From positions 1 to 53,730 of the forward strand of contig JAQXCQ010000114.1 of the NCBI GenBank assembly GCA_029251785.1: a stretch of DNA of 53,730 nt, in the 5' to 3' direction. The position numbers and the translations under genes were made by a program. Under the pieces are notes generated by a model. It searched no databases. It saw nothing but the letters and a program-made list of their open reading frames with translations, and was not told where the DNA came from. The stretch is from Maricaulis sp. (GTDB lineage: Bacteria > Pseudomonadota > Alphaproteobacteria > Caulobacterales > Maricaulaceae). Below are positions 31,038 to 44,834 of the stretch, piece by piece. Each line of letters opens with the position of its first letter. Position 1 is the stretch's first letter.

Positions 31038-32405
31038 ATGAACAAGTTTCTCATGGCTGTTTCAGTCATCGCTATCACCAGTGGCACTGCCCTGGCTCAA
31101 GACCCGTCAGCAGCGCCATCCTTTGGTGATGTCTCGCTGACCACAGGCTACACGCCTGACCCGTACATGGTCTCAATCACGTCCGGTGGCTTAATTGATG
31201 CCCGCGGGATCTCGCCCAGTTGTGCCGGCTGGGTCGCCAACGCCCCAGATTTCGACCTTTATTTCACGGCAGGCAGCCTGCCACTGACGATTGCGGCTAT
31301 GTCGGATAGCGACACCACTCTTGTGGTCAACGCGCCGGACGGCCGCTGGTATTGCAATGATGATGGGGGGCAGGGTCTCAATCCGCTTTTGACCTTCAAT
31401 AATGCTCAATCCGGACTTTATGACATCTGGATCGGTTCCTACCGTCAGGGTGACTTTGCCAATGCGACCTTGTCGATATCGGAAATTGGCCAGGTTGGCG
31501 GAGCTCCGATAAATTCCAATCCTCAGGTTGGACCAGCGCCGAGTTATCCCATTCCACAGCCGAATGGCCCGGATTTCACGCTTAATCCAACGGCTGGAAG
31601 CGTCAATTTGTCCGCCGGCTATGCGCCGGACCCCCATACCGCCCGGATTGTTTCCGGCGGTGCGTTCCGCGCCTATGACACATCCAGCAATTGCGCTGGC
31701 TGGGTTTCTGAGGCACCGGATTACGCCGTGAATTATAATGCCGGCGGTTTCGACCTGACATTTGGCGTCGACTCCGGTTCCGATACGACCCTGATGATCA
31801 ATGATCCAAACGGAAATTGGATCTGTAATGATGATGGCGGTGTCAATCTCAACCCGCTCATCACTTTCTCCAATCCGCAATCAGGCCGTTATGACGTCTG
31901 GATCGGATCTTACTCCCAGGGTGAATTTGCGAACTCGACCCTATCGGTTTCCGAGGTTGGGCAGGTCGCTCCTCATCGCGGCACGCCGGTTGCCAACCGG
32001 ATCGACATGTCCCTACCAGCCAGCTTTGGTTCGGCCAATCTAAGTTCCGGGTTTGCGCCCGATCCTTACCGGGTCAACATCGTATCTGGCGGCCAATTCC
32101 GCGCCAGCTCCGCGCGTAACGGATGCGCTGGCTGGGTAGCAGGTGCTCCCGACTTCCAGCTGACCTTTAATGCAGGGTCGTTGCCGCTCATCCTGTCTGC
32201 GGCGTCCAATTCGGACACCACGATCTTGGTCAATGATCCAAACGGAAATTGGCACTGTGATGATGATGGCGGCAATGCTGGCCTTAATCCGGCGCTGAGC
32301 TTCTATAACCCGTCTTCCGGTGTCTATGATATCTGGATCGGATCCTATGCTCAGGGCGACAATGCGAGCGCTTCGCTGTCAATCTCCGAGCTTTACAGCG
32401 AATAG
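31038..32405 (+). CDS. Exported protein with three PPC-like beta-sandwich repeats
   Basis: 455 residues: a signal peptide (MNKFLMAVSVIAITSGTALA) followed by three copies of a roughly 120-residue module (DNA about 31116-31490, 31590-31960 and 32010-32400), joined by Pro-rich linkers. Each copy has a GYxPDP opening, a Cys in CAGWV, DTT(L/I)xVN, a second Cys in W-x-C-(N/D)-DDG, then LNPxLxFxNxxSGxYDxWIGSY and xATLSxSE. The layout resembles bacterial pre-peptidase C-terminal (PPC) domains, but here the modules form the whole protein with no enzyme attached. The two Cys per module probably form a disulfide. The Met at 31038 with CGAAGGGGATC upstream is preferred to an earlier in-frame start. Confidence 0.82.
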   Translation: MNKFLMAVSVIAITSGTALAQDPSAAPSFGDVSLTTGYTPDPYMVSITSGGLIDARGISPSCAGWVANAPDFDLYFTAGSLPLTIAAMSDSDTTLVVNAPDGRWYCNDDGGQGLNPLLTFNNAQSGLYDIWIGSYRQGDFANATLSISEIGQVGGAPINSNPQVGPAPSYPIPQPNGPDFTLNPTAGSVNLSAGYAPDPHTARIVSGGAFRAYDTSSNCAGWVSEAPDYAVNYNAGGFDLTFGVDSGSDTTLMINDPNGNWICNDDGGVNLNPLITFSNPQSGRYDVWIGSYSQGEFANSTLSVSEVGQVAPHRGTPVANRIDMSLPASFGSANLSSGFAPDPYRVNIVSGGQFRASSARNGCAGWVAGAPDFQLTFNAGSLPLILSAASNSDTTILVNDPNGNWHCDDDGGNAGLNPALSFYNPSSGVYDIWIGSYAQGDNASASLSISELYSE

Positions 32406-32429
32406 TCTTTTTCGAACGACGATGAATTG

Positions 32430-32460
32430 CGCCGCCCCGGACGAACCGGGGCGGCGTTTT
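32430..32460 (+). terminator. Rho-independent terminator after the PPC-repeat gene
   Basis: CGCCGCCCCGG (32430-32440) pairs perfectly with CCGGGGCGGCG (32446-32456) across a five-base loop and is followed by TTTT. It lies just beyond the PPC gene stop and 14 bp from the convergent leuB stop; it may also serve weakly for the ilv-leu operon, though that side has no T run. Confidence 0.88.
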
Positions 32461-32473
32461 CATGCGCGCTGTC

Positions 32474-33544
32474 CTAGGCTGCCTGGTGCGCGGGGAGAGA
32501 TGTTTTCAGGCATTGCAGAAAACGGTCGCCCGCCTGCGTGCAACTGAGTGGTCCGCCGAGATCCTCGGTCCAGGCCCCGGCCTCGTGCATGGTATTGACC
32601 GCAGAGCGAATTGACATTGCCGCCCGGGGTTCGTCCAGCCCGCTTTCAAAGAGTTGCGCCATGGCCTCGATTGCCCCGAATGGGTTGGCCCTGTCTTGAC
32701 CGGCGATATCGGGGGCAGAGCCGTGTATCGGTTCAAACAATCCTGGTGCCTGATCTCCTAAAGACGCGGATCCGAGTAATCCAATCGAACCGGGCAGCAT
32801 CGAGGCTTCGTCGCTGAGAATGTCACCAAACATGTTTTCCGTCAGCACCACATCGAAGCTGGCCGGGTCCCGCAATAAATGCATGGCAGCGGCGTCGATA
32901 TACATGTGATCCAGGGTTATATCGGGATAGATGGTCTTACCCATTCGCGTCACCACCTCACGCCACAGGCGACTGGTTTCCAGCACATTGGCCTTGTCGA
33001 CCGAGGTGAGTTTTGCGCGCCGCCTTCTTGCCTGTTGGAAGGCAATATGGGCGACGCGTTCAATCTCTGAAACTGAATAGGTGCAGGTGTCGCTGGCGGA
33101 TGTTTCCGTGCGTTTTCTCGCACCGAAATAGACGCCACCCGTCAGTTCGCGAACCACGAGAATATCAATATTTGCGACGCGCTCCGGCCGCAAAGGAGAC
33201 CTGTGGGCGAGCGCCGGGTGGACCGCGACGGGACGCAAATTGGCGTACACGCCCAAGGCTTTGCGCAGCGCCAGTAATCCCGCCTCCGGTCTGGCTGTTG
33301 CTTGATCCCATTTGGGCCCGCCTACGGCCCCAAGGAACACGGCATTTGCGGACAGGCAGGCCTGCAATGTTTCATCGGTAAGCGGCTCCCCAAACTGGTC
33401 AATGGATGCGCCACCAAAAGCGTGTTCGGTTATTCTCAAGGACAGGTCGAAATGGTCCGATATGGTCTGGGCAAGCCGTTTGGCGATGGCTGTGATCTCT
33501 GGACCAATGCCATCTCCGGGTAAAAAGACGATTGTGCGGGTCAT
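32474..33544 (-). CDS. leuB: 3-isopropylmalate dehydrogenase
   Basis: Third enzyme of leucine synthesis: oxidises and decarboxylates 3-isopropylmalate with NAD. 356 residues, normal length. Motifs are LPGDGIGPEITA at the N-terminus, the substrate-binding LRPERVAN region, RELTGGVYFG, VDKANVLETSRLW, TENMFGDILSDEASML and EPIHGSAPDIAGQDRANPFG. It is the last gene of the nine-gene ilv-leu cluster, overlapping the leuD stop by ATGA, and converges on the PPC-repeat gene. Confidence 0.96.
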   Translation of the reverse strand: MTRTIVFLPGDGIGPEITAIAKRLAQTISDHFDLSLRITEHAFGGASIDQFGEPLTDETLQACLSANAVFLGAVGGPKWDQATARPEAGLLALRKALGVYANLRPVAVHPALAHRSPLRPERVANIDILVVRELTGGVYFGARKRTETSASDTCTYSVSEIERVAHIAFQQARRRRAKLTSVDKANVLETSRLWREVVTRMGKTIYPDITLDHMYIDAAAMHLLRDPASFDVVLTENMFGDILSDEASMLPGSIGLLGSASLGDQAPGLFEPIHGSAPDIAGQDRANPFGAIEAMAQLFESGLDEPRAAMSIRSAVNTMHEAGAWTEDLGGPLSCTQAGDRFLQCLKTSLPAHQAA

Positions 33545-34131
33545 GTTGTTCGGGCCTCGTATGCGCTGATCTGGGCGTCGTGGGACAGCAGGAAGCCAAG
33601 CGGGTCGGTGCCGTCAAGCAAACATCTTCGGGCGAAGGGTTCGATCTGAAATTGGAAGCTGGGACCATTGCCCAGATCGACCCGCCCAGTCTCGAGATTG
33701 ATCGCGATCTCTACACCATCATGCTCCAGCAGCCAGTGATGGGCGATCTTCGGCGCGATGATGGGCAGGATGCCATTCTTGCTGGCATTGGCGGAAAAAA
33801 TATCGGCGATTTCGCTGGAGATGACCACGCGAATGCCCAGATCATGCAGTGCCCATGCGGCGTGTTCCCGAGAGGATCCGCAACCGAAATTGCGTCCGGC
33901 GACAATCACTTGCTGATGGGCCGTGTCGAGCGCATTGAGCGGTTCGCCGGAGCGTCGATGTCCCGCCTCGTCATAGCGCCAGTCATGAAAAGCATTGAGA
34001 CCCAGTCCGGCGCACTGTGTGGTGGTGAGAAAGCGTGCCGGGATAATCTGGTCCGTATCGATGTTTTCCTGTGAAATAACGAATGTTCGGCTTCGAAAGC
34101 GAGCGAAGTCCGGTTTGAGGGGGTCAGACAT
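33541..34131 (-). CDS. leuD: 3-isopropylmalate dehydratase small subunit
   Basis: Small (swivel-domain) subunit of isopropylmalate isomerase, pairing with LeuC. 196 residues. Motifs are [30 protein letters not shown] and [19 protein letters not shown], which line the active site at the subunit interface. It overlaps leuC by eight bases upstream and leuB by ATGA downstream. Confidence 0.96.
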
Positions 34132-35551
34132 ATTCGGCCTCCATCAGGGAGCCAGCGGCGGTAATGTGGCCCGCTATGGCAGAGGCCGCCGCTGTTGCCG
34201 GACTGGCCAATACGGTGCGTACGCCGGTGCCCTGACGTCCCTCAAAATTGCGATTGGAGGTGGAGACGACCAATTGGCCGGCCTCGCCGCGATCACCGTT
34301 CATGGCAATGCACATCGAGCAACCGGGCTGGCGCCATTCGGCACCGGCGAAGCGGAAAATTTTATCCAACCCCTCGGCTTCTGCCTGGTGCCTGACGCTG
34401 ACCGAGCCGGGCACGATCAACATGCGAAGTCCCGGCGCGATCTTGCGGCCGCGCATGACGCGGGCGGCGATGCGCAGATCGCCGATGCGCGCATTGGTGC
34501 ATGAGCCGATAAAGACCTGGCTTATACGATGTTCGCCCATGGCTTCGCCGGGCTGAAAATCCATATAGGTGATGGCGCGTTGCTCCGCCGGAGTTTGAGG
34601 GGTTGGAATCGCGTCACCAATGGCGATGCCGGTATCGGGGGCCGTGCCCCAGGTGACCATCGGGCGGATCTGTGTGGCGTCGATGTGGACTTCACAATCA
34701 AAGACCGCACCTGCATCACTCGCCAGCTCGCTCCACTTGGCGACGGCATTGTCCCAATTCATTCCCTTGGGCGCGCGGGCGCGACCCCGCAGATATTCGA
34801 ATGTGGTCTGGTCCGGCGCAATCATGCCGGCCCGCGCACCGGCCTCGATCGACATATTGCAAACGGTCATTCGGGCTTCCATATCCAGCGCAGTTATCGC
34901 GTCGCCGGTATATTCGATCACGCAGCCGGTGCCGCCATCCACGCCGATTTGCGCGATGATGTGCAGGATGATGTCCTTGGCGGTGACGTCGCTGCCTGTT
35001 TGACCGTTGACGTGAATGCGCATGGATTTTGGCTTGCGCTGCAACAAAGTCTGGGTGGCCAGAACATGGCCGACTTCGGTTGTGCCAATGCCGAAGGCCA
35101 GCGCTCCAAAAGCGCCATGGGTTGCGGTGTGGCTGTCGCCGCAGACAATCGTCATGCCCGGCTGGGTGGCCCCTAATTCCGGGCCAATAATGTGGATGAC
35201 GCCGCGGTGCTCGCTATCCCAATCGTGCAGCTCTATCCCGTGCTTGCGCGCATTGTCTTGCAGGGTTTCGACCTGGTTGCGTGCTTGCTCATTGGCGTAG
35301 GGCGGTGTTTCTCCCGGGGCAAAGTCGAGCGTTGGGGTGGAGTGATCGACAGTCGCCAATGTCCTGTCTGGGCGGCGCACGTCCAGCCCACGTGAGGCGA
35401 GTTCTGCAAATGCCTGGGGCGAGGTAACCTCGTGAACCAGATGCAGGTCGATATACATCAGGGCTGGTGTCTCGACCGTTTCCTGCGTAACGAGATGCGC
35501 GTCCCAGACCTTGTCGAACAGGGAGCGCGGATGTGCGTGGTCAGGCGACAT
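34124..35551 (-). CDS. leuC: 3-isopropylmalate dehydratase large subunit
   Basis: Iron-sulfur subunit of isopropylmalate isomerase (475 residues). [12 protein letters not shown] opens the protein. [36 protein letters not shown] and [11 protein letters not shown] supply the cluster-ligating cysteines (Cys in SCTN and the C-x2-C of GCSMC). The Met at 35551 is chosen from homology-like sequence; it lies 11 bp inside the end of ilvE, while the upstream extension to 35629 is simply the ilvE end read in another frame. Confidence 0.95.
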
Positions 35552-36497
35552 GTTGGGCCTCCATGGCGTCATCATGAACCGGGGACAGCCAGTCCCAGCG
35601 ATCTTCGGTATGGCCAGTGAACAGGCCAAAGAAACGATCTTGCATCAGGGCGGCGACAGGACCGCGCCCGCCACATCGAACTTCGAAGCGGTCCACGGAT
35701 CGAACCGGTGTGATCTCGGCAGCGGTGCCGGTGAAGAAGATCTCGTCGGCTACGTAGAGCGCTTCGCGCGAGAGGGTCTGTTCGCGCACATCATAGCCTT
35801 CCGCCTCGGCCAGCTTGATGATGGCGTCGCGGGTCAGCCCGCCCAGAATGGAGGATGAGGTTGGCGGCGTGCGGATGATCCCCTCAGAGACGACGAAGAT
35901 GTTTTCACCGGCGCCTTCGGAGACCAGCCCGTTGACGTCTAGGCCGATGCCCTCATCAAAGCCACGCTCGTGAGCCTCGTGACTGATCAATACGGATGAC
36001 AGGTAATTGCCGCCCGCCTTGGCCCCCGTCGGGATGGTATTGGGGGCCGGGCGTGACCAGGACGAGATGCAGCAATCAACGCCCTTCGCCAGAGCATCCT
36101 CGCCCAGATAGGCACCCCACGGGAAGGCTGCGATTGCGACATCGATGCTGGTATCGGCGCCGGGCAGGACACCGATCCCGCCATAGCCGAAGAAAGCGAT
36201 GGGGCGCAGATAGGCGTCCTTCAGCCGGTTGGAGCGGACGGTCAGCTTGCACGCGTGCTCGAGCTCCTCCGGCGTGTAGGGCAATTTCATATGATACATG
36301 CGTGCACTGTCGAACAACCGGCGAATATGATCTTTGAGCCTGAAGATGACCGGTCCGTCCGGGGTGTCATAGGCGCGGACGCCCTCGAAGACAGACGTGC
36401 CGTAATGCAGGGCGTGGGAGAGGATGTGGGTCTGCGCATCCTGCCAATCAACGAGCTCGCCATTGCGCCAGATGAAGTCTGTTTCCTGGATTGCCAT
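35541..36497 (-). CDS. ilvE: Branched-chain amino acid aminotransferase
   Basis: Class IV PLP aminotransferase (318 residues) that makes the final transamination to valine, leucine and isoleucine. Features are [16 protein letters not shown] near the N-terminus, [10 protein letters not shown] with the region of the PLP-binding Lys just before it, [14 protein letters not shown], and the C-terminal [12 protein letters not shown]. The Met at 36497 is preceded by AAAAGGAA. It follows leuA by 13 bp, so the enzyme shared by all three pathways sits inside the leucine genes. Confidence 0.95.
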
Positions 36498-36510
36498 AAT
36501 GTATTCCTTT

Positions 36511-38073
36511 TCAAGCCGGTTCGGCGGTTTTGCCGGCGCATTGGCGGGCTTCATTTCTGTTCAGTGTGAAGAGCAGCGCATCGATGGCTGCGGTGATGAC
36601 GTCGGGTCCGCGAGCACGGCCGGTTGAGCGCTCGCCGGCGATTTCAACTTCAATGTCGGCGGTGAATTCACGGCCGGCTCCCGAGTTGAGCAGACGCGTT
36701 TCAAGGCCGAGCACATCGGCCTGCAGGCCGGTGATGCGTTGCACGGCAGTGAAAGCGGCCGCCATCTGACCATCGCCGGTCGCCACATCGGAGACACGGC
36801 CGCGATCGGGATGTTCGAGTTCAACGCGGGCAAATTGCGTGGGCTTGCGGCCGGTCGTGGTACGCAATTCCGTGCGCACCACGTGCCAGGCCGAACCGGA
36901 CGGGCTATAGCCTTCCATCATTGCGACGATGTCGGCATCGGTGACTTCGCCGTGACGGTCAGCCAGAGTTTTGAACGCTTTGAAGGCGTCGTTGAGATCA
37001 CCCGGGCTGGGTTGATATCCCAGCTGGGCCAGACGTTGACCGAGCGCGTGCTTGCCCGAATGCTTGCCCAAGATGAGCGATGAGCCGGGTGCACCGACGG
37101 TTTCTGCGGACATGATTTCATAGGTCCGCCGGTCCGCCAGCATGCCGTGCTGATGGATACCCGCCTCATGGGCAAAGGCATTCTTGCCGATGATCGCCTT
37201 ATTGGGGGCGATCTGGGTGCCGGTCAGGCGCATCAACTTCTGGCTGGCGGGCCAGAGATGCTCGGTTTCGACCCGGGTGTTGGTGCGGAAGATGTCCTCA
37301 CGCACGGCGAGGCCCATGACGAGTTCTTCGAGGGAGCAATTGCCCGCGCGCTCGCCGATACCATTGATCGCGCATTCAACTTGTCTGGCACCGGCATGCA
37401 CCGCTGCCAGCGAGTTGGCGACTGCCAGTCCGAGATCATCGTGGCAATGCGTGCTGAAAATGACGCCTTGGGGACGCTCCACATTGGCGATCAAATTGGT
37501 GAAGGCCGCATGGATTTCGTCCGGCGTGCAGATACCAACCGTGTCCGGCGCATTGAGGATGGTGGCCCCGGCCTGCGCTGCGCAACTCATCGCCTCGACG
37601 AGGAATTCAGGCTCGGTGCGCAGGGCGTCCTCGGCGGAGAATTCGATCTCGTCGACATGGTCCCGTGCATGGCGGATCGAGGCGTCGATCGCCTTGAGGA
37701 TTTCGGCCTTCGACATACGCAATTTAAATTCGCGATGGATGGGGCTGGTGGCAATAAACAGATGCGCGCGGCTGTGGCGTGCTGTTTCCAGGGCGCGGAT
37801 GGCCGCGTCGATATCGGCTTCAACAGCACGGGCGAGGGCGCAGATCGTGGGTGTGCGGATTTCCGTGGCGATTAGCTGGACGGCTTCGAGATCACCGGGT
37901 GAGGCGGCGGCAAAACCGGCTTCGATGATGTCAACATTGAGCGCTTCAAGCGTGCGCGCCATGTCCAGCTTTTCAGCGGGTGACATGGAAAATCCGGGCG
38001 CTTGCTCGCCATCACGCAGGGTCGTATCGAAGATGCGAACGTGTGGATCTTGGGTCAGCTTTGAGGTCGACAT
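36511..38073 (-). CDS. leuA: 2-isopropylmalate synthase
   Basis: First committed step of leucine synthesis: condenses acetyl-CoA with 2-ketoisovalerate. 520 residues. The catalytic TIM barrel opens with IFDTTLRDGEQAPGFSM; later blocks are STHCHDDLGLAVANSLAAV, NGIGERAGNCSLEE (metal-binding His and Asn) and HEAGIHQHGML. A C-terminal regulatory domain (from about residue 390) is present, so leucine feedback inhibition is expected. The start overlaps the end of ilvM by 19 bases. Confidence 0.96.
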   Translation of the reverse strand: MSTSKLTQDPHVRIFDTTLRDGEQAPGFSMSPAEKLDMARTLEALNVDIIEAGFAAASPGDLEAVQLIATEIRTPTICALARAVEADIDAAIRALETARHSRAHLFIATSPIHREFKLRMSKAEILKAIDASIRHARDHVDEIEFSAEDALRTEPEFLVEAMSCAAQAGATILNAPDTVGICTPDEIHAAFTNLIANVERPQGVIFSTHCHDDLGLAVANSLAAVHAGARQVECAINGIGERAGNCSLEELVMGLAVREDIFRTNTRVETEHLWPASQKLMRLTGTQIAPNKAIIGKNAFAHEAGIHQHGMLADRRTYEIMSAETVGAPGSSLILGKHSGKHALGQRLAQLGYQPSPGDLNDAFKAFKTLADRHGEVTDADIVAMMEGYSPSGSAWHVVRTELRTTTGRKPTQFARVELEHPDRGRVSDVATGDGQMAAAFTAVQRITGLQADVLGLETRLLNSGAGREFTADIEVEIAGERSTGRARGPDVITAAIDALLFTLNRNEARQCAGKTAEPA

Positions 38074-38345
38074 GATTGCCTCCCGGTCGGTTCTGAAACG
38101 TGAATGTCCTGCGGCGCGAAAATCGTGTTCACGTCGAGCAGGCGGCTGACCTGGCGGGCCAAAATGTCGATACGGCGCGCGTCCTCACGGGCGCAAACCT
38201 CCATGGTGATGCGGGATTCGCCGCCGGTTGGTGCGGATTTATCCAGAGCATTGATGGAGAAGCCACGTCGTTCCACGAGACCAATGAGTCGTGTCAGGGC
38301 ACCTTCGTTTTCGGCGAGGGAAACGCTTAGCAGATTGGTGTTCAT
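38055..38345 (-). CDS. ilvM: Acetolactate synthase small subunit, ACT-only (IlvM type)
   Basis: Regulatory subunit of acetohydroxyacid synthase. Only 96 residues: a single ACT domain (LLSVSLAENEGALTRLIGLVERRGFSI) with a short tail, lacking the second domain of the roughly 160-residue IlvN/IlvH proteins usual in alphaproteobacteria. This is the enterobacterial/xanthomonad AHAS II type. It starts one base after the ilvG stop and overlaps leuA by 19 bases. Confidence 0.9.
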   Translation of the reverse strand: MNTNLLSVSLAENEGALTRLIGLVERRGFSINALDKSAPTGGESRITMEVCAREDARRIDILARQVSRLLDVNTIFAPQDIHVSEPTGRQSCRPQS

Positions 38346-38346
38346 G

Positions 38347-40053
38347 TCAATTCTCCATCATTTCTGTATTGGACTTGCCCGGCGGCACGAGCGGCCAGAC
38401 GTTTTCTCTGGGGTTGATCAGGACGTGGGCGAGGATCGGGCCTGTGGCGTTGAGCAGGCGCTCGATCGCGTCGGGCACCTGGTCGCGGCTGTGCACGGTA
38501 AAGGCTTCAACGCCGAAGGCACGGGCGACATCGGCGAAGTCGGGATTGTCGTAGAGGTCGATCTCGGAGTAGTTCTCCTCGAAAAAATGCTCCTGCCACT
38601 GGCGAACCAGGCCCAGTGATGAGTTGTCGAGCAGCAGGATTCGAACCGGGATATTGTACCGGCGGGCTGTGGCCAGCTCCTGGATATTCATCATGATCGA
38701 GCCGTCACCGGTGATGGTGACAACTTTTTTGTTCGGGCATTGCAAGGTCGCGCCGATGCCGGCGGGCAGACCGTAGCCCATCGCGCCCAGGCCGGCGCTG
38801 GTCAGGTGCGCTTCTGGGGTGTTGAAGCGGCAATGCTGGGCCACCCACATCTGGTGCTGGCCGACATCACAGGTGGCGATGAAATCGTCGCCCGCCGCTT
38901 CGGACAGTTGGCGCAGCATGGCGGGCGCAAAGATGCCATTGCCGGGCGCGTCGTAATCGAAGGCGTGCTCACGCTTGCGCTGAAGACAGATGTCGCGCCA
39001 GTCAGAGATGTCCAGATAACCCGTATCAAAAGCGTAGAGAGCAGCGGCCAGATTACCGTGGACCGCGATATCAACGGTGCGCAGCTTGCCGATTTCGGCG
39101 CTGTCTGCATCCATGTGGATGATCTTGGCACTCGGGGCAAAACCGTCCGGTCGTCCAGTTGCGCGGTCGTCGAAGCGGGCGCCGCAGCAGATTAGCAGAT
39201 CGCTCTCCTGGACGGCCATATTGGCTTCGCGGCTGCCATGCATGCCCAACATACCCATGAAGTTTTGGGCATCAGGATGCGAACAGCCCAGTCCCTTTAA
39301 TGTGGCTACGGCGGGGATGCCTGTACGGGACATGAAATCACGCAAGGCATCAACGGCACCGCCCAGGGCGACGCCGCCACCGATATACAAGACCGGACGT
39401 TTGGAAGAGGCCAGCAGGGCCGTCGCGGCGTCAAGTCTGGGGGAGATGGACCGCGACGGCCCTGGCTTCGGTCGAGACGGGGAGATTGGGGGGTGTGCCT
39501 CGGCCTGAAGAATGTCCTTGGGCAGATCAACCAGAACCGGGCCGGGACGGCCCGTCTCGGCGATCTGGAAAGCCTGTCTGATGAGTTCGGGGATCCGGTC
39601 TGGATCTCGAACAATGATGGAGTGTTTGCAAACGGGCAGGCTCATGCCGAAAATGTCGATTTCCTGGAAGGCGTCCGTGCCCATGACACTGGTGGGAACC
39701 TGCCCGGTCAGGATCACCATGGGAACGCTGTCCATATAGGCATTGGCGATACCGGTCAGCAGATTGGTCGCGCCGGGACCGGAGGTGGCCAGGCAAACGC
39801 CCGCCGTTCCGGTCAGACGCGCCTGGGCGTCCGCGGCAAAGGCAGCCGCTTGTTCGTGTCGCACCAAAATGTGCTGCAGACGTGAACCGACCAGAGCGTC
39901 ATAGACCGGCATGATCGAGCCGCCGGGATAGCCGAATATCCGCGTCACTCCGATCTGCTCGAGCGTGCGCACCACCCAATGCGCCCCGGTGTTGATGGAG
40001 CGGGGAGCGGGTGCTGTGTCGGCGATGATCGGGGCGGTGGACTGGGCGGTCAT
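38347..40053 (-). CDS. ilvG: Acetolactate synthase large subunit (AHAS II-like)
   Basis: ThDP enzyme (568 residues) condensing two pyruvates to acetolactate, or pyruvate with 2-ketobutyrate. Motifs are the catalytic Glu in VRHEQAAAFAADA, TSGPGATNLLTGIANAY, and the ThDP/Mg block from GDGSIMMNIQEL to LLDNSSLGLVRQWQEHFF. The Asp-Asn in LLDN and the following EENYSE-DNPDF pattern resemble E. coli IlvG (isozyme II) more than IlvI or IlvB, by recall and not by alignment. Together with the ACT-only small subunit this suggests AHAS II. It lies 31 bp after ilvC. Confidence 0.94.
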   Translation of the reverse strand: MTAQSTAPIIADTAPAPRSINTGAHWVVRTLEQIGVTRIFGYPGGSIMPVYDALVGSRLQHILVRHEQAAAFAADAQARLTGTAGVCLATSGPGATNLLTGIANAYMDSVPMVILTGQVPTSVMGTDAFQEIDIFGMSLPVCKHSIIVRDPDRIPELIRQAFQIAETGRPGPVLVDLPKDILQAEAHPPISPSRPKPGPSRSISPRLDAATALLASSKRPVLYIGGGVALGGAVDALRDFMSRTGIPAVATLKGLGCSHPDAQNFMGMLGMHGSREANMAVQESDLLICCGARFDDRATGRPDGFAPSAKIIHMDADSAEIGKLRTVDIAVHGNLAAALYAFDTGYLDISDWRDICLQRKREHAFDYDAPGNGIFAPAMLRQLSEAAGDDFIATCDVGQHQMWVAQHCRFNTPEAHLTSAGLGAMGYGLPAGIGATLQCPNKKVVTITGDGSIMMNIQELATARRYNIPVRILLLDNSSLGLVRQWQEHFFEENYSEIDLYDNPDFADVARAFGVEAFTVHSRDQVPDAIERLLNATGPILAHVLINPRENVWPLVPPGKSNTEMMEN

Positions 40054-40084
40054 GGTCGATTTCCTGTTGGTTTTGGATCTGGGG

Positions 40085-41131
40085 TCAGAGCGCGTTTGCG
40101 CCGGGCTTTAGCCAGGGCATATCGGCACGAAGGCGAGCACCGGTTTGTTCGATTGGATGGGCGAGGTCCTTGCGCAGGAGGGCGTTGTATTGCGGCTTTC
40201 CCGCTTGATTTTCGGTGATCCAGTCGCGGGCAAATGTGCCGTCCTGGATGTCGGTCAGGATTTCGCGCATGCGCTGGCGGGTCTCGTCATTGACCACGCG
40301 CGGTCCGGATCTCAGATCGCCATAAATGGCGGTCTCGGAGATGAATTCATGCATCTTCTCCAGCCCGCCCTCATACAAGAGGTCAACGATCAGCTTGAGT
40401 TCGTGCAGGCATTCGAAATAGGCAATTTCGGGCTGATAGCCCGCGTCGGTCAGAGTCTCGTATCCGGCCAAAACCAGCTCGGTCGCGCCGCCACAGAGGA
40501 CAGCCTGCTCGCCAAACAGATCGGTTTCTGTTTCCTCGGCAAAGCTGGTTTCGATGACGCCGGCGGTCGCACCGCCGATGCAGGCTGTGTAGCTGAGGGC
40601 ACGGGCGCGGGCGGTGCCGGTGGCGTCCTGATGGATGGCGAAGAGGCAGGGCACGCCACGTCCACGCTGAAACTCGCGGCGGACGAGATCGCCGGGCCCC
40701 TTGGGGGCAACCAGCAAAATGTCGATACCCTCAGGCGCATCAACGCGCCCGAAATGCACGGTGAAGCCATGGGCAAATAAAACCGCATCGCCGGTTGAGA
40801 GATTGGGTGCAATGTCCTCGCGGAAGACTTGCTCGTGGGACATGTCGGGCGTCAGAATGGCGATCAGCGAGGCTTCGCGTGCGGCGTCCGCAGGCTCGGC
40901 AATGCGCAAGCCGTCCTCGGTCGCGCGTTGTGCGCCCTTGCCGCCGGCGCGAACGCCGACCACCACATTGCAGCCGCTCTCTTTCATGTTGAGCGCGTGG
41001 GCACGGCCCTGACTGCCATAGCCGATAACGGCAATGGTTTCGGCCTTGAAGGCCGTCGTGTCGACTTCACCGGCGGCCCGGCTCATGGCTGTTTGGGGAG
41101 CGGAATGCTGGGCGGTGGTTGAGGTGGTCAT
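40085..41131 (-). CDS. ilvC: Ketol-acid reductoisomerase, class I
   Basis: NADPH enzyme converting acetolactate to dihydroxyisovalerate (and the isoleucine homologue). 348 residues, short class I form. Motifs are the Rossmann [28 protein letters not shown], and the metal-binding [16 protein letters not shown] and [12 protein letters not shown]. The first 15 residues before an internal Met look unconserved, so the mature start may be at the second Met. The start overlaps the ilvD stop as ATGA. Confidence 0.95.
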
Positions 41132-42846
41132 GCGAAGATCTCCTGATCGGATATAGTCTGTTGTGAGGGTGATGATTGTGGACGAGCGCTGGTCACGGCT
41201 CCGGCGGATGCGGAGGAGACCAGACGTGCATATTTGTCGAACACGCCGCCCATTTGGTTGGGCGCACGCGGGGCCCAGCCGATGCGGCGAGCAACGAGAT
41301 CGGCATCTGTATTGATGGTCCTGGCACCCACGTCGATGTGGATCATGTCGCCAGTCTCGATCAAACCAATGGCGCCGCCGGCAACGCTTTCAGGCGCGAC
41401 ATGGCCGATGACAAAACCCTTCGAGGCGCCGGAAAAGCGGCCATCGGTGATCAGGGCGACGTCTTCGCTAAGACCCTGGCCGACCAGAGCTGCGGTGACG
41501 CCCAGCATTTCGCGCATGCCGGGACCGCCGCGCGGGCCCTCATTGCGGATGATGATGATATCGCCGCGCTCAATGGTGTTGGCCTCGACAGCGGCAAAGG
41601 CGTCTTCTTCGCATTCGAAGACCTTGGCTGGCCCGTCAAAGCGTGTGCGGGCGTGACCGGACAGTTTGAGGACCGCGCCCTCGCTGGCGATTTCGCCATA
41701 GAGAATGCGGAAGCCGCCATCGGGTTTTACGGGGTTCTCGATGCTGCGGATGACGCGCTGGCCGCGGGATTCTTCCGCGTCAGCAAATTCCTCAAACAGG
41801 GTTCGACCGGTGACGGTGGGCGTGTTGGTGAGCCGTTCAGCCTGCATCAGTCGCTGGCCAAACAGGCGGGTGCCGCCGGCCAGGAACATGTGATGGGCGA
41901 GGAAATTTCCACCGGGCTTGAGATCAGTGATGACCGGCGCTGTGGCGGAAATTTCATCAAATATGTCGATAGAAAATTCGACACCCGCTTCTGCGGCGAT
42001 GGCGGCCAGATGCAAGACAGCGTTGGTCGAACCGCCACTTGCTGAGGCCGCTATCGCCGCATTTCTCAGGGATGCGGGGGTGATGAATTGGCGGGGGCGC
42101 GTGTCGGATTTGACCAGATCAACAACCAGCTGGCCGCACGTCGCGGCGGCTTTTGCTTTGTCGGGGTGCGGGGCAGGAATGTCGTTGACCCCCATTGGGG
42201 ACAGGCCCAGCATGGACAGGATCATGGCCATGGTATTGGCGGTGAACTGACCGCCACAAGCTCCGGCCCCGGGGCAGGCGGATTTCTCGACAGCGGCCAG
42301 TTCATCATCGTCGATTGCACCACACGCATGGGCACCGACAGCTTCGAAAACATCCTGGATTGAGAGGTCCTGACCGTCCTTACGGCCGGGCATGATCGAG
42401 CCGCCATACAGGGCGCAGCCAGGCAAATCCATGCGGGCCAGGGCCATCGCCGCGGCCGGGATCGTCTTGTCGCAGCCGGTCAGGATTATGACGCCATCGA
42501 GACTGTGACCGCGGACAGCCAGCTCGATCGAATCGGCGATGACCTCTCGGGAAATCAGGGAGGCGCGCATGCCCTGCGTGCCCATGGAGATGCCGTCGGA
42601 AACGACGATGGTGTTGAAATCGATGGGAATTCCACCGGCCTCGCGGATCGCTTCGCGGACCGGGTCGGCCAGTTCGCGCAGATGCATGTTGCAGGGGGTG
42701 ATGCCCGTCCAGGTATTGACCAGGCCGATCATCGGCCGGGAAAAGTCCTGGTCGGTCATGCCGGTGGCGCGCAGCATCGCTCGCGCCGGTGCCCGTGCAG
42801 GGCCGGCCGTGATGTGGTCTGAATTTTTGATACGCTGTGTCGACAT
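41128..42846 (-). CDS. ilvD: Dihydroxy-acid dehydratase
   Basis: Iron-sulfur dehydratase (572 residues) forming 2-ketoisovalerate and 2-keto-3-methylvalerate. Cluster and substrate motifs are [34 protein letters not shown] and [10 protein letters not shown], with [15 protein letters not shown] near the end. The ATG at 42846 (GGAAAA upstream) is used; the frame also opens at a TTG at 42867. It is the first structural gene of the cluster, 26 bases beyond the attenuator-like terminator, so its transcription should be the step controlled by the leader. Confidence 0.95.
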
Positions 42847-42872
42847 GGGCTGTTTTCCGTGCGGCAAGCACG

Positions 42873-42906
42873 AAAAACCCCGCTTCGTTTCCGAAGCGGG
42901 GTTTTT
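42873..42906 (-). terminator. Attenuator terminator before ilvD
   Basis: On the minus strand, CCCCGCTTCG (42901-42892) pairs perfectly with CGAAGCGGGG (42887-42878) across a GAAA tetraloop and is followed by TTTTT. It sits between the leader reading frame and ilvD, where a terminator makes sense only if it is conditional. A competing pairing of CCGGAGCGG (42961-42953, inside the leader frame) with CCGCTTCGG (42899-42891) gives nine pairs with one G-U, a candidate antiterminator. Confidence 0.88.
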
Positions 42907-42932
42907 CGTCTCTGCCGTTGTTGAGGTTATTC

Positions 42933-43097
42933 CTAACTGGCAGGTGCGAGTTCCGCTCCGGGTATGGTGGTAATAATCACCACAAGTACGAGGACGAGCG
43001 CTAGAATGGACACAAGTTTACGCGCACGATCGAGCACTCGCTCACCCTTGAGGGTGGCGATGGCTGCGGCCAGTTTATTGTGTGCGCTAAAGGTCAT
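42933..43097 (-). CDS. ilvL: Leader peptide of the ilv-leu operon (attenuation)
   Basis: A 54-codon frame (ATG at 43097, stop TAG at 42935-42933), too short for the supplied gene list. Residues 28-45 contain 14 Leu, Val or Ile out of 18, including LVLVLVVII, then a Pro-Gly-Ala segment, as in the enterobacterial IlvL peptide. Rare-looking codons (CTA, GTA, ATA) lie in or next to the run. A GTG at 43037 with AAGGGTGAG just upstream gives a 34-residue peptide, closer to the 32 residues of E. coli IlvL, and may be the real start. Stalling of the ribosome when charged Leu/Val/Ile tRNA is scarce would favour the antiterminator. A small membrane protein is the alternative reading. Confidence 0.8.
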
Positions 43098-43127
43098 GAT
43101 GTCCGTCAAATTTTTTCTGGCCGAACC

Positions 43128-43177
43128 GTGACGTCACTTATCTGGGATTGCAAGTGCAATTGTGCAACAATTGTGCT
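43128..43177 (-). promoter_or_regulatory. Predicted promoter/operator region of the ilv-leu operon
   Basis: On the minus strand TTGCAC (43167-43162), an 18-bp spacer and AGATAA (43143-43138) form a plausible promoter upstream of the leader frame. The spacer contains a perfect ATTGCA-TGCAAT inverted repeat (43147-43160), and the presumed start region contains the palindrome GTGACGTCAC (43128-43137). Four TGC blocks recur between 43149 and 43176. This could bind a regulator such as an Lrp-type protein; that is speculation. Confidence 0.45.
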
Positions 43178-43272
43178 CTATTTGCCCAAGGGCTTGCTAT
43201 ACAAGCAATAATCGTTTGCAGTTGGGGCCAGGTCGGCATGACATTGCGGTTGCAAAATGGAATGGGACGGCG

Positions 43273-43647
43273 ATGTTCAAGCGAATAATCTGGCTCACCT
43301 TTGGAATGCTGGCACTGGGGCTGGCGATCCTTGGTGCCATCTTGCCTCTGCTTCCCACGACCCCGTTTTTGTTGCTGGCGACCTATGCTTTTGCCCGAAG
43401 TTCAAAGCGTTTGCACACCTGGTTGACCGAACACCGAATATTTGGCGGACTAATCCGAAACTGGCAAAAAAATGGCAGTATTGACCGCAAAACCAAACTC
43501 ATTTCGGTGTCTACAATGGTGGGTTTGCTGGCGTTGAGTTGGGCCCTGGATGTCCGTCCCCTGGTGTTGATAATCCAGGCGGTCGTGCTGACGTGCTCGG
43601 CAATATTCGTGCTCACGCGGCCCGACGCGGAATTGGATCAACCCTAG
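43273..43647 (+). CDS. YbaN/DUF454-family inner-membrane protein
   Basis: Small membrane protein (124 residues from the Met at 43273, preceded by GGGACGGCG; the longer frame from 43162 runs through the ilv promoter region). The conserved family core is LGAILPLLPTTPFLLLATYAFARSS followed by LHTWL and a short charged stretch, with two more helices towards the C-terminus (about residues 72-110). The function of DUF454 is unknown. It is divergent from the ilv leader. Its stop and the stop of the DUF1501 gene share the palindrome CTAG. Confidence 0.88.
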   Translation: MFKRIIWLTFGMLALGLAILGAILPLLPTTPFLLLATYAFARSSKRLHTWLTEHRIFGGLIRNWQKNGSIDRKTKLISVSTMVGLLALSWALDVRPLVLIIQAVVLTCSAIFVLTRPDAELDQP

Positions 43648-44834
43648 ACCAGTAACCCGTCCAAAAGGGTGTTGGAGCGTGCATGCGGAAATACCAGCTG
43701 GTCCAGATCGTCCGGTGCAATCCGCCAGTGTCCGTGCAGCACGCCCTTGAATAGCGCGTTCAGGTCGTTGACGGGCATCAGGTCACGATTATCGTGAAGT
43801 CGCGAAAGACCGGGCCAGTTTCCAACAAGCCTGCCACCATTAACCGCACCACCGATCAGGAAGGCCGCGCTTGCGGTGCCATGATCTGTACCGGCGGCTC
43901 CATTGACGCGGACCGTGCGACCAAATTCGGTGCAGACGATAATCGCAGATTCTGACCATTTTTGCTGTAACGAGGTGTGCAGCGTTTCGATGACACCATC
44001 GAGTCCGGTAAACAGGTTTGCCAGTTGTCCTGTCATCGATCCCTGACCGACATGGGTGTCCCACCCATCGAGCCCGATAACCGTGAGGTCCGGGCCTCCG
44101 GGCGCGGCCATAAGTTCTCCGGCGGCCTGGGCGATGACGCCCCAGCTCTGGGCTCCGCGACGGCGTCGGCCCGCCATTCCAGACACCATTTCGCCGCCCA
44201 TTGCGCCTGCGATTTCGTCGGTTTGCAGGGCGCGTTGCAGGGACATTCCCAGGCGGGCATCGTCCGCGTAAAGATCAATCAGACGAGCGAGTGTATCGTC
44301 GTCGGCATCTGGCAAGACGGACGGTGCCCAGGTGGATACTGCCGCATCGCCACGCAAAATTAGCGGCACTGACTGTCCAATTCCAACCCCGGTTTCCGCT
44401 GACGGGCCGATAACTGACAGGGCCCGGTTGAGCCAGCCATCGCGTTGGGAGGGGCTGCCGGCCTCGAGCTGGTCCTGGCCATCGAAATGAGAGCGGTCTC
44501 GATACGCGGTCGAGCAGGCATGAAGGCCCAGCGCATCGCCGTTTCGCCAGAGACTGGCGACATGGCCGAGATTGGGGTGAAGGCTGAAACCGTCGCCGAT
44601 ATCGTGACCTTCATCGAGGGCGAGAGACCCGCGAAGCGAGTGGTAGCGGCTGTCGCCAAGCGGGGCGATCGCGGCCAGCCCGTCCATAGCGCCGCGCAAG
44701 ATAATGACGCAGAGTTTTTTGCCGATATTGCGGGCTGGGGCCTCCTGAGCACTTGCCGGAGACGGCAGGGCCAGGGTTGCACCAGCCAGACCGGATAGGA
44801 GCAAGTCGCGGCGTGTGGGGATGAAATGGGTCAT
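43644..44834 (-). CDS. DUF1501-family protein with Tat signal
   Basis: 396 residues. The N-terminus carries a twin-arginine signal (TRRDLLLSG followed by a hydrophobic stretch and SPASA), so it is folded before export. Conserved DUF1501 segments are KKLCVIILRGAMDGL, RSHFDGQDQLEAG, IIVCTEFGRTVRVNG with DHGTASAAFLIGG. The fold is sulfatase/alkaline-phosphatase-like, but no complete catalytic set is claimed here. The ATG at 44834 has GAGGAA upstream and follows the DUF1800 gene by eight bases. DUF1501 and DUF1800 genes are nearly always paired; their joint function is unknown. Confidence 0.9.
   Translation of the reverse strand: MTHFIPTRRDLLLSGLAGATLALPSPASAQEAPARNIGKKLCVIILRGAMDGLAAIAPLGDSRYHSLRGSLALDEGHDIGDGFSLHPNLGHVASLWRNGDALGLHACSTAYRDRSHFDGQDQLEAGSPSQRDGWLNRALSVIGPSAETGVGIGQSVPLILRGDAAVSTWAPSVLPDADDDTLARLIDLYADDARLGMSLQRALQTDEIAGAMGGEMVSGMAGRRRRGAQSWGVIAQAAGELMAAPGGPDLTVIGLDGWDTHVGQGSMTGQLANLFTGLDGVIETLHTSLQQKWSESAIIVCTEFGRTVRVNGAAGTDHGTASAAFLIGGAVNGGRLVGNWPGLSRLHDNRDLMPVNDLNALFKGVLHGHWRIAPDDLDQLVFPHARSNTLLDGLLV

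Follow-up and report, generated by a model that had tools for sequence, protein, structure and literature searches.

The segment upstream of ilvD in the window (53.7 kb, the whole stretch of DNA that was analysed) very probably encodes a ribosome-mediated transcription attenuator of the ilvL type, placed upstream of an ilv-leu superoperon. Indeed (i) a short leader ORF carries a run of control codons for the amino acids that would be regulated, (ii) an intrinsic terminator separates this leader from the first structural gene, and (iii) an antiterminator that is mutually exclusive with the terminator lies directly 3' of the control codons. A protector (1:2) stem between the control region and region 2 of the antiterminator was not recovered; such a stem is inessential to the working principle, and therefore this is the only element left without support. 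The assignment draws on the features listed below, on their conservation and covariation, on codon bias and on the layout of the downstream operon.

43097..42933, minus strand: leader peptide ORF, 54 codons, from ATG 43097 to TAG 42935-42933
43016..42972, minus strand: control run (residues 28-42), with abundant CTC/CTT/CTA, GTG/GTA/GTC and ATT codons
42961..42953, minus strand: region 2, 5' arm of the antiterminator (outer helix), pairing with 42899-42891, with covariation
42943..42939, minus strand: 5' arm (CTGCC) of the inner antiterminator helix, from pairing and covariation
42916..42912, minus strand: 3' arm (GGCAG) of the inner antiterminator helix, from pairing and covariation
42909..42870, minus strand: intrinsic terminator, 18-bp stem with a GAAA loop and a T run inside its 3' arm
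42899..42891, minus strand: region 3, 3' arm of the antiterminator, overlapping the 5' arm of the terminator, from pairing and covariation

The leader ORF

The leader ORF is located between a divergent ORF at 43162 (plus strand) and the start codon of ilvD (ATG 42846). The 54-codon frame reported in the first-pass annotation, with 14 Leu, Val or Ile among its 18 densest residues, was recovered at 43097-42933 on the minus strand, and it is the sole short ORF (14-100 aa) on either strand of the 53.7-kb window with at least 11 Leu/Val/Ile per 16 residues. Of the two starts offered by that annotation, ATG 43097 (54 codons) is favoured over GTG 43037, because an in-frame ATG, giving a peptide of 43-54 aa, is present in 18 out of 18 loci of a genus-level set (17 genomes of the same genus, its own among them, and one, G027, from a neighbouring genus).

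A scan for consensus promoters from 32000 to 43700 found none (3.8 expected by chance). Upstream of the leader, at about 43098-43220 of the window, two elements recur in the genus alignment, one TTGC and the other, lying further down, resembling GTTGCA-C-GCAATAG; both are less clear in the window itself and could possibly correspond to a promoter or an operator.

Terminator and antiterminator

The terminator stem (42909-42892 with 42887-42870) is perfect over 17-18 bp; the 10-bp hairpin described initially is its GC-rich core. A terminator, called as a T tract preceded by a hairpin at least as stable as -10 kcal/mol, was found in 86 of 89 leader loci (88 related loci, with E. coli ilvL added as a positive control) and in 11 of 178 dinucleotide shuffles; such shuffle counts are not probabilities, because the rows are related. 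The leader region as a whole folds with a z-score of -5.37, none of 200 shuffles being equally stable. Folded alone, the antiterminator segment reaches -27.6 kcal/mol and the terminator about -26 to -31 kcal/mol depending on the limits chosen, and the two structures are therefore close in stability.

The 9-bp alternative pairing of 42961-42953 with 42899-42891 is present, with one G-U among the nine base pairs, and it encloses an inner helix, CTGCC/GGCAG, which was absent from the initial description. Over 87 loci, E. coli counted in, the mean score of the best pairing between regions 2 and 3 is 20.3. Shuffled regions give 14.1, and arms exchanged among loci 18.8; in some Brevundimonas-type loci region 2 pairs with the terminator arm over just 4-5 bp. 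Covariation was assessed in an alignment (A1) of 28 rows hand-picked from 82 distinct leader segments: both sides are changed in 6 of 13 antiterminator pairs (13 such cells; 90.8% of cells paired, versus at most 48.7% when the partner is slid by 1-3 columns), in 4 of 5 inner-helix pairs (77.1% of cells paired) and in 3 of 14 terminator pairs (92.0% of cells paired). The covariance analysis across relatives that had been recommended thus finds a covarying antiterminator, and the Leu/Val/Ile codon run and both alternative hairpins, whose lack of conservation had been named as grounds for rejecting the proposal, are conserved among relatives. In three loci (L008-L010), the leader stop codon is shifted up to just past region 2 and the CCTGCC arm is kept although it is noncoding there, which fits a constraint acting on the RNA.

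A 5-bp CGCTC/GAGCG pairing within the control codons, put forward in the first-pass annotation as a competing 1:2 stem, does exist in the window; the role attributed to it finds no support, since the best pairing of region 2 with upstream sequence over 72 loci scores 14.0 versus 14.3 in shuffles and exceeds the locus's own shuffle mean in 30 of the 72. A local hairpin sequestering region 2, suggested by the consensus fold, is 92.9% paired but shows zero covariation and was rejected.

Control codons

Codon usage in the control runs of 88 loci is strongly biased relative to the ilvD genes of the same loci: CTT and CTC make up 76% of Leu codons and CTG 13% (23% and 61% in ilvD), GTA makes up 40% of Val codons (3% in ilvD) and ATT 76% of Ile codons (23% in ilvD). 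Among five close genomes, the control run shows fewer silent differences (pS 0.064) than the N-terminal part of the leader (pS 0.212, with pN 0.053). CTT and CTC, likewise ATT and ATC, are normally read by one tRNA. For this reason, RNA folding or reading speed, rather than the choice of an isoacceptor, may account for the preference for ATT over ATC. Strong codon bias in attenuation leaders is presented as established in an excerpt of PMC1183508.

The antiterminator arm had been described as directly following the Val/Leu/Ile codons, and locus geometry bears this out, the control codons ending short of region 2. In 51 distinct loci, the end of region 2 and that of the stop codon are 17 or 20 nt apart. 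In these loci, with codons numbered back from the end of region 2, Leu/Val/Ile density is 59-100% at -7 to -16, mixed (29-69%) at -4 to -6, and 0-2% at -2 and -3, which lie inside region 2. With typical ribosome footprints, region 2 would be largely free if the ribosome were held at codon -7 or earlier, and the CTGCC arm would be covered if it stood at the stop codon.

The ilv-leu operon

Nine genes follow the leader, as identified with Pfam and NCBIfam:

41128..42846, minus strand: ilvD, dihydroxy-acid dehydratase
40085..41131, minus strand: ilvC, ketol-acid reductoisomerase
38347..40053, minus strand: ilvG, acetolactate synthase 2 large subunit type
38055..38345, minus strand: ilvM-like acetolactate synthase small subunit (every NCBIfam match falls under the cut-off; its position after ilvG also counts as evidence)
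36511..38073, minus strand: leuA, 2-isopropylmalate synthase
35541..36497, minus strand: ilvE, branched-chain aminotransferase
34124..35551, minus strand: leuC, isopropylmalate dehydratase large subunit
33541..34131, minus strand: leuD, isopropylmalate dehydratase small subunit
32474..33544, minus strand: leuB, 3-isopropylmalate dehydrogenase

All of these genes (ilvD-ilvC-ilvG-ilvM-leuA-ilvE-leuC-leuD-leuB) run in the same direction, and neighbours overlap or are spaced by no more than about 35 nt, which suggests that they form one transcript. The genome (95% complete) shows a single ilvG and a single leuA, with no second copy of either; a further ilvD match in it, at 32% identity, is a distant paralogue. 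The ilvA gene is located outside the superoperon, on another contig (C13), and the operon therefore does not hold the whole isoleucine pathway. Consequently, the earlier view that one leader governs nine genes for all three branched-chain amino acids is supported as regards the nine co-directional genes and not as regards a complete isoleucine pathway.

The order ilvD-ilvC-ilvG-(ilvM)-leuA-(ilvE)-leuC-leuD-leuB recurs in Maricaulis, Robiginitomaculum, Parvularcula and Brevundimonas records, some of these loci showing gene losses and a shifted ilvE. In the gammaproteobacteria Dyella and Luteibacter (L072, L080, L084 and others), the order leuA-ilvE-leuC-leuD-leuB-ilvD-ilvC-ilvG is a circular shift of the alphaproteobacterial one, and the IlvD proteins share about 57-60% identity; an exchange or a shared origin may lie behind this.

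Distribution of the leader

A leader, defined as an ORF with at least 9 Leu/Val/Ile per 16 residues located at most 420 nt upstream of ilvD, is present in 88 of 110 related ilvD loci (111 were gathered and L002, a distant paralogue, was removed). By the same definition, the antisense strand scores 9 of 110 and mononucleotide shuffles 56 of 2200. The locus counts are not independent, because some contigs appear twice (e.g. L004/L032, L014/L033). Its presence varies with gene order: it precedes ilvD in 77 of 83 loci in which ilvD comes first and ilvC lies downstream, in 11 of 12 loci fitting neither gene-order rule, and in none of the 15 loci in which leu genes lie directly upstream of ilvD, such as those of Dyella and Luteibacter records, which provide a natural control. 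Among the six leaderless loci of the 83, four (L059, L062, L066, L075) have a terminator, a frame just under the threshold, or both, and two (L026, L104) have neither a terminator nor a near-threshold frame.

A class-wide search with an RNA model of the leader gave matches at E <= 0.001 in 38 of 289 genomes, mostly to the terminator part. Twelve of these matches were inspected: only one (L152) is a leader followed by an ilvD-like ORF, and two others (L161, L166) have frames rich in I/L/V once the threshold is relaxed. Where a genome lacked a good match to the ilvD superoperon, the region upstream of the ilvG/ilvB homologue showed no strong Leu/Val/Ile run in 10 loci (one cut at a contig edge); three weak frames (6-7 Leu/Val/Ile in 12) occur there within 200 nt and one about 480 nt upstream.

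Sister leaders upstream of ilvA, leuA and ilvC

In its own genome, the leader RNA model has one strong full-length match (111 bits); the next full-length match (L184, 21.5 bits) has no leader and no recognisable branched-chain gene. At the level of the order, 249 genomes were sampled, and 84 of them matched at E <= 1e-7. Nineteen matches were inspected, namely 18 picked from this order search and L184: nine precede ilvD, four an ilvC-ilvG-ilvM-leuA-ilvE operon, one a second leuA-ilvE, two ilvA, and three no recognised branched-chain gene. Besides L184, the last category comprises two of the 18 strong matches, L189 and L191, where no branched-chain gene was recognised downstream. Both matches lie upstream of uncharacterised ORFs and have short frames with Thr, Ile and Met near a similar terminator. 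In one genome (G031), a leader precedes the ilvC-first operon, and no Leu/Val/Ile-rich frame is visible in the 350 nt upstream of its separate ilvD. Furthermore, G027 has a full superoperon with its leader and, in addition, a second leuA-ilvE preceded by a Leu-rich leader and a terminator (L181:380-770).

IlvA, whose identity is given by NCBIfam above cut-off, had hits at E <= 1e-80 in 28 out of 37 genomes, including 14 of the 19 from the same genus, and 26 of the 28 loci were scanned upstream, L216 (contig edge) and L227 being excluded. An Ile-rich leader precedes the separate ilvA in 12 of 13 readable loci of the genus (L201-L212), all 12 of which combine a terminator, a leader and a GGAGC region 2; no leader of this kind was recognised in the 13 scanned loci outside the genus. 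Ile accounts for 49 of 86 I/L/V residues in these ilvA leaders versus 34 of 188 in 18 ilvD leaders, as counted in automatically chosen 12-residue runs (the run of L206, which is not the one before region 2, was retained). The exception is the genome studied here, in which the ilvA locus (L213) keeps the terminator and the Ile run of sister species has shrunk to two Ile codons.

Proposed mechanism and alternative explanations

According to the proposed mechanism, transcription would begin upstream of 43097 and the leader would be translated while emerging. Under a shortage of charged Leu-, Val- or Ile-tRNA, the ribosome would stall in the control run (43016-42972), leaving region 2 (42961-42953) free to pair with region 3 (42899-42891), aided by the inner helix (42943-42939 with 42916-42912); the antiterminator would then prevent formation of the terminator, and RNA polymerase would read into the nine genes. 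If these amino acids were in ample supply, a ribosome at the stop codon (42935-42933) would cover the inner-helix arm and the edge of region 2, so that the terminator (42909-42870) would form and transcription would end before ilvD. The controlling amino acids would presumably be those of the codon run.

The hairpin is strong and would act alone, as expected if it were simply a partial terminator of the 5' UTR, read through at a constant rate, with the leader frame as a by-product; this reading appears very improbable, given that the antiterminator covaries, that the control codons are strongly biased and that the amino acid of the run tracks the downstream gene. The leader could also be a functional small hydrophobic protein acting in trans, attenuation being secondary or absent: its hydrophobic run could span a membrane, amino-acid differences in its N-terminal part are below silent ones (pN and pS given above for the five close genomes), and the leader peptide peTrpL is described as acting in trans in an excerpt of PMC7298713. 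The length and N-terminus nevertheless vary widely, the C-terminus is lost to the earlier stop in L008-L010 where the RNA arm is retained, and no Pfam family was matched at cut-off, which makes a protein function very improbable.

Direct sensing of a metabolite or a tRNA by the leader RNA (riboswitch or T-box) would likewise be compatible with a structured 5' UTR ending in a terminator. It is given hardly any weight, as no Rfam family reaches its gathering score in the window, no riboswitch or T-box is among the sub-threshold matches listed for 42700-43300, and conservation is concentrated in the ORF and the two hairpins. Ribosome-mediated attenuation thus remains the preferred reading.

A further, tentative proposal is that in this clade a single attenuator was duplicated and then adapted to each target solely through its control codons, serving the superoperon with Leu, Val and Ile, ilvA with Ile and the second leuA with Leu. 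No conserved 1:2 protector would be needed in such a design, since a ribosome that has reached the stop codon would block the inner antiterminator helix. If this were true, the branched-chain pathway would be run by a few sister attenuators that natural variation has already recoded.

Comparison with known systems

Two Rfam families give scores below their gathering thresholds for this leader. RF02744, which matches the E. coli ilvL attenuator (ilvXGMEDA operon), scores 17.8 bits in the window (gathering score 88), and RF00506 (Thr_leader) gives a weak full-length match at 42985-42869 (40.8 bits, E 3.5e-6; gathering score 55), although the control amino acids here are Leu, Val and Ile; neither family matched any of 12 related loci. 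In the titles and abstracts searched, mostly from outside the subscription journals, nothing was found for these bacteria about such a leader preceding ilvD or about an Ile leader preceding an ilvA that stands apart.

Across this natural series of leaders, both the control amino acids (Leu/Val/Ile, Ile or Leu) and the synonymous codons (CTC/CTT, GTA and ATT instead of CTG, GTC and ATC) vary with the regulated genes. The series could serve to test why attenuators choose particular codons, for example through the selective charging of tRNA isoacceptors, which is discussed in an excerpt of PMC1183508.

As in E. coli ilvL, the leader peptide is rich in Val, Ile and Leu, region 2 lies just past the control codons and a terminator precedes the first gene; the pairing of regions 2 and 3 in ilvL itself was recovered computationally as 8 bp. 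Unlike ilvL, the present element precedes ilvD and a nine-gene ilv-leu operon, has an inner CTGCC/GGCAG helix, and belongs to loci in which the tested 1:2 stem is not conserved. Among alphaproteobacteria, the attenuator of the Caulobacter crescentus ilvBN leader, as described in an excerpt of PMC4117421 citing Tarleton 1994, similarly has tandem branched-chain codons and a terminator, whereas it controls the two genes of an acetolactate synthase operon. The ilvB leader peptide of alphaproteobacteria, mentioned in an excerpt of PMC1273637 citing Vitreschak 2004, is likewise a comparative prediction of a leader-peptide attenuator, made in the same bacterial class, the gene there being ilvB. In summary, classical ribosome-mediated attenuation is already known for ilv operons of gamma- and alphaproteobacteria, and the attenuator described here indicates how a full ilv-leu superoperon is probably tuned in an alphaproteobacterial group.
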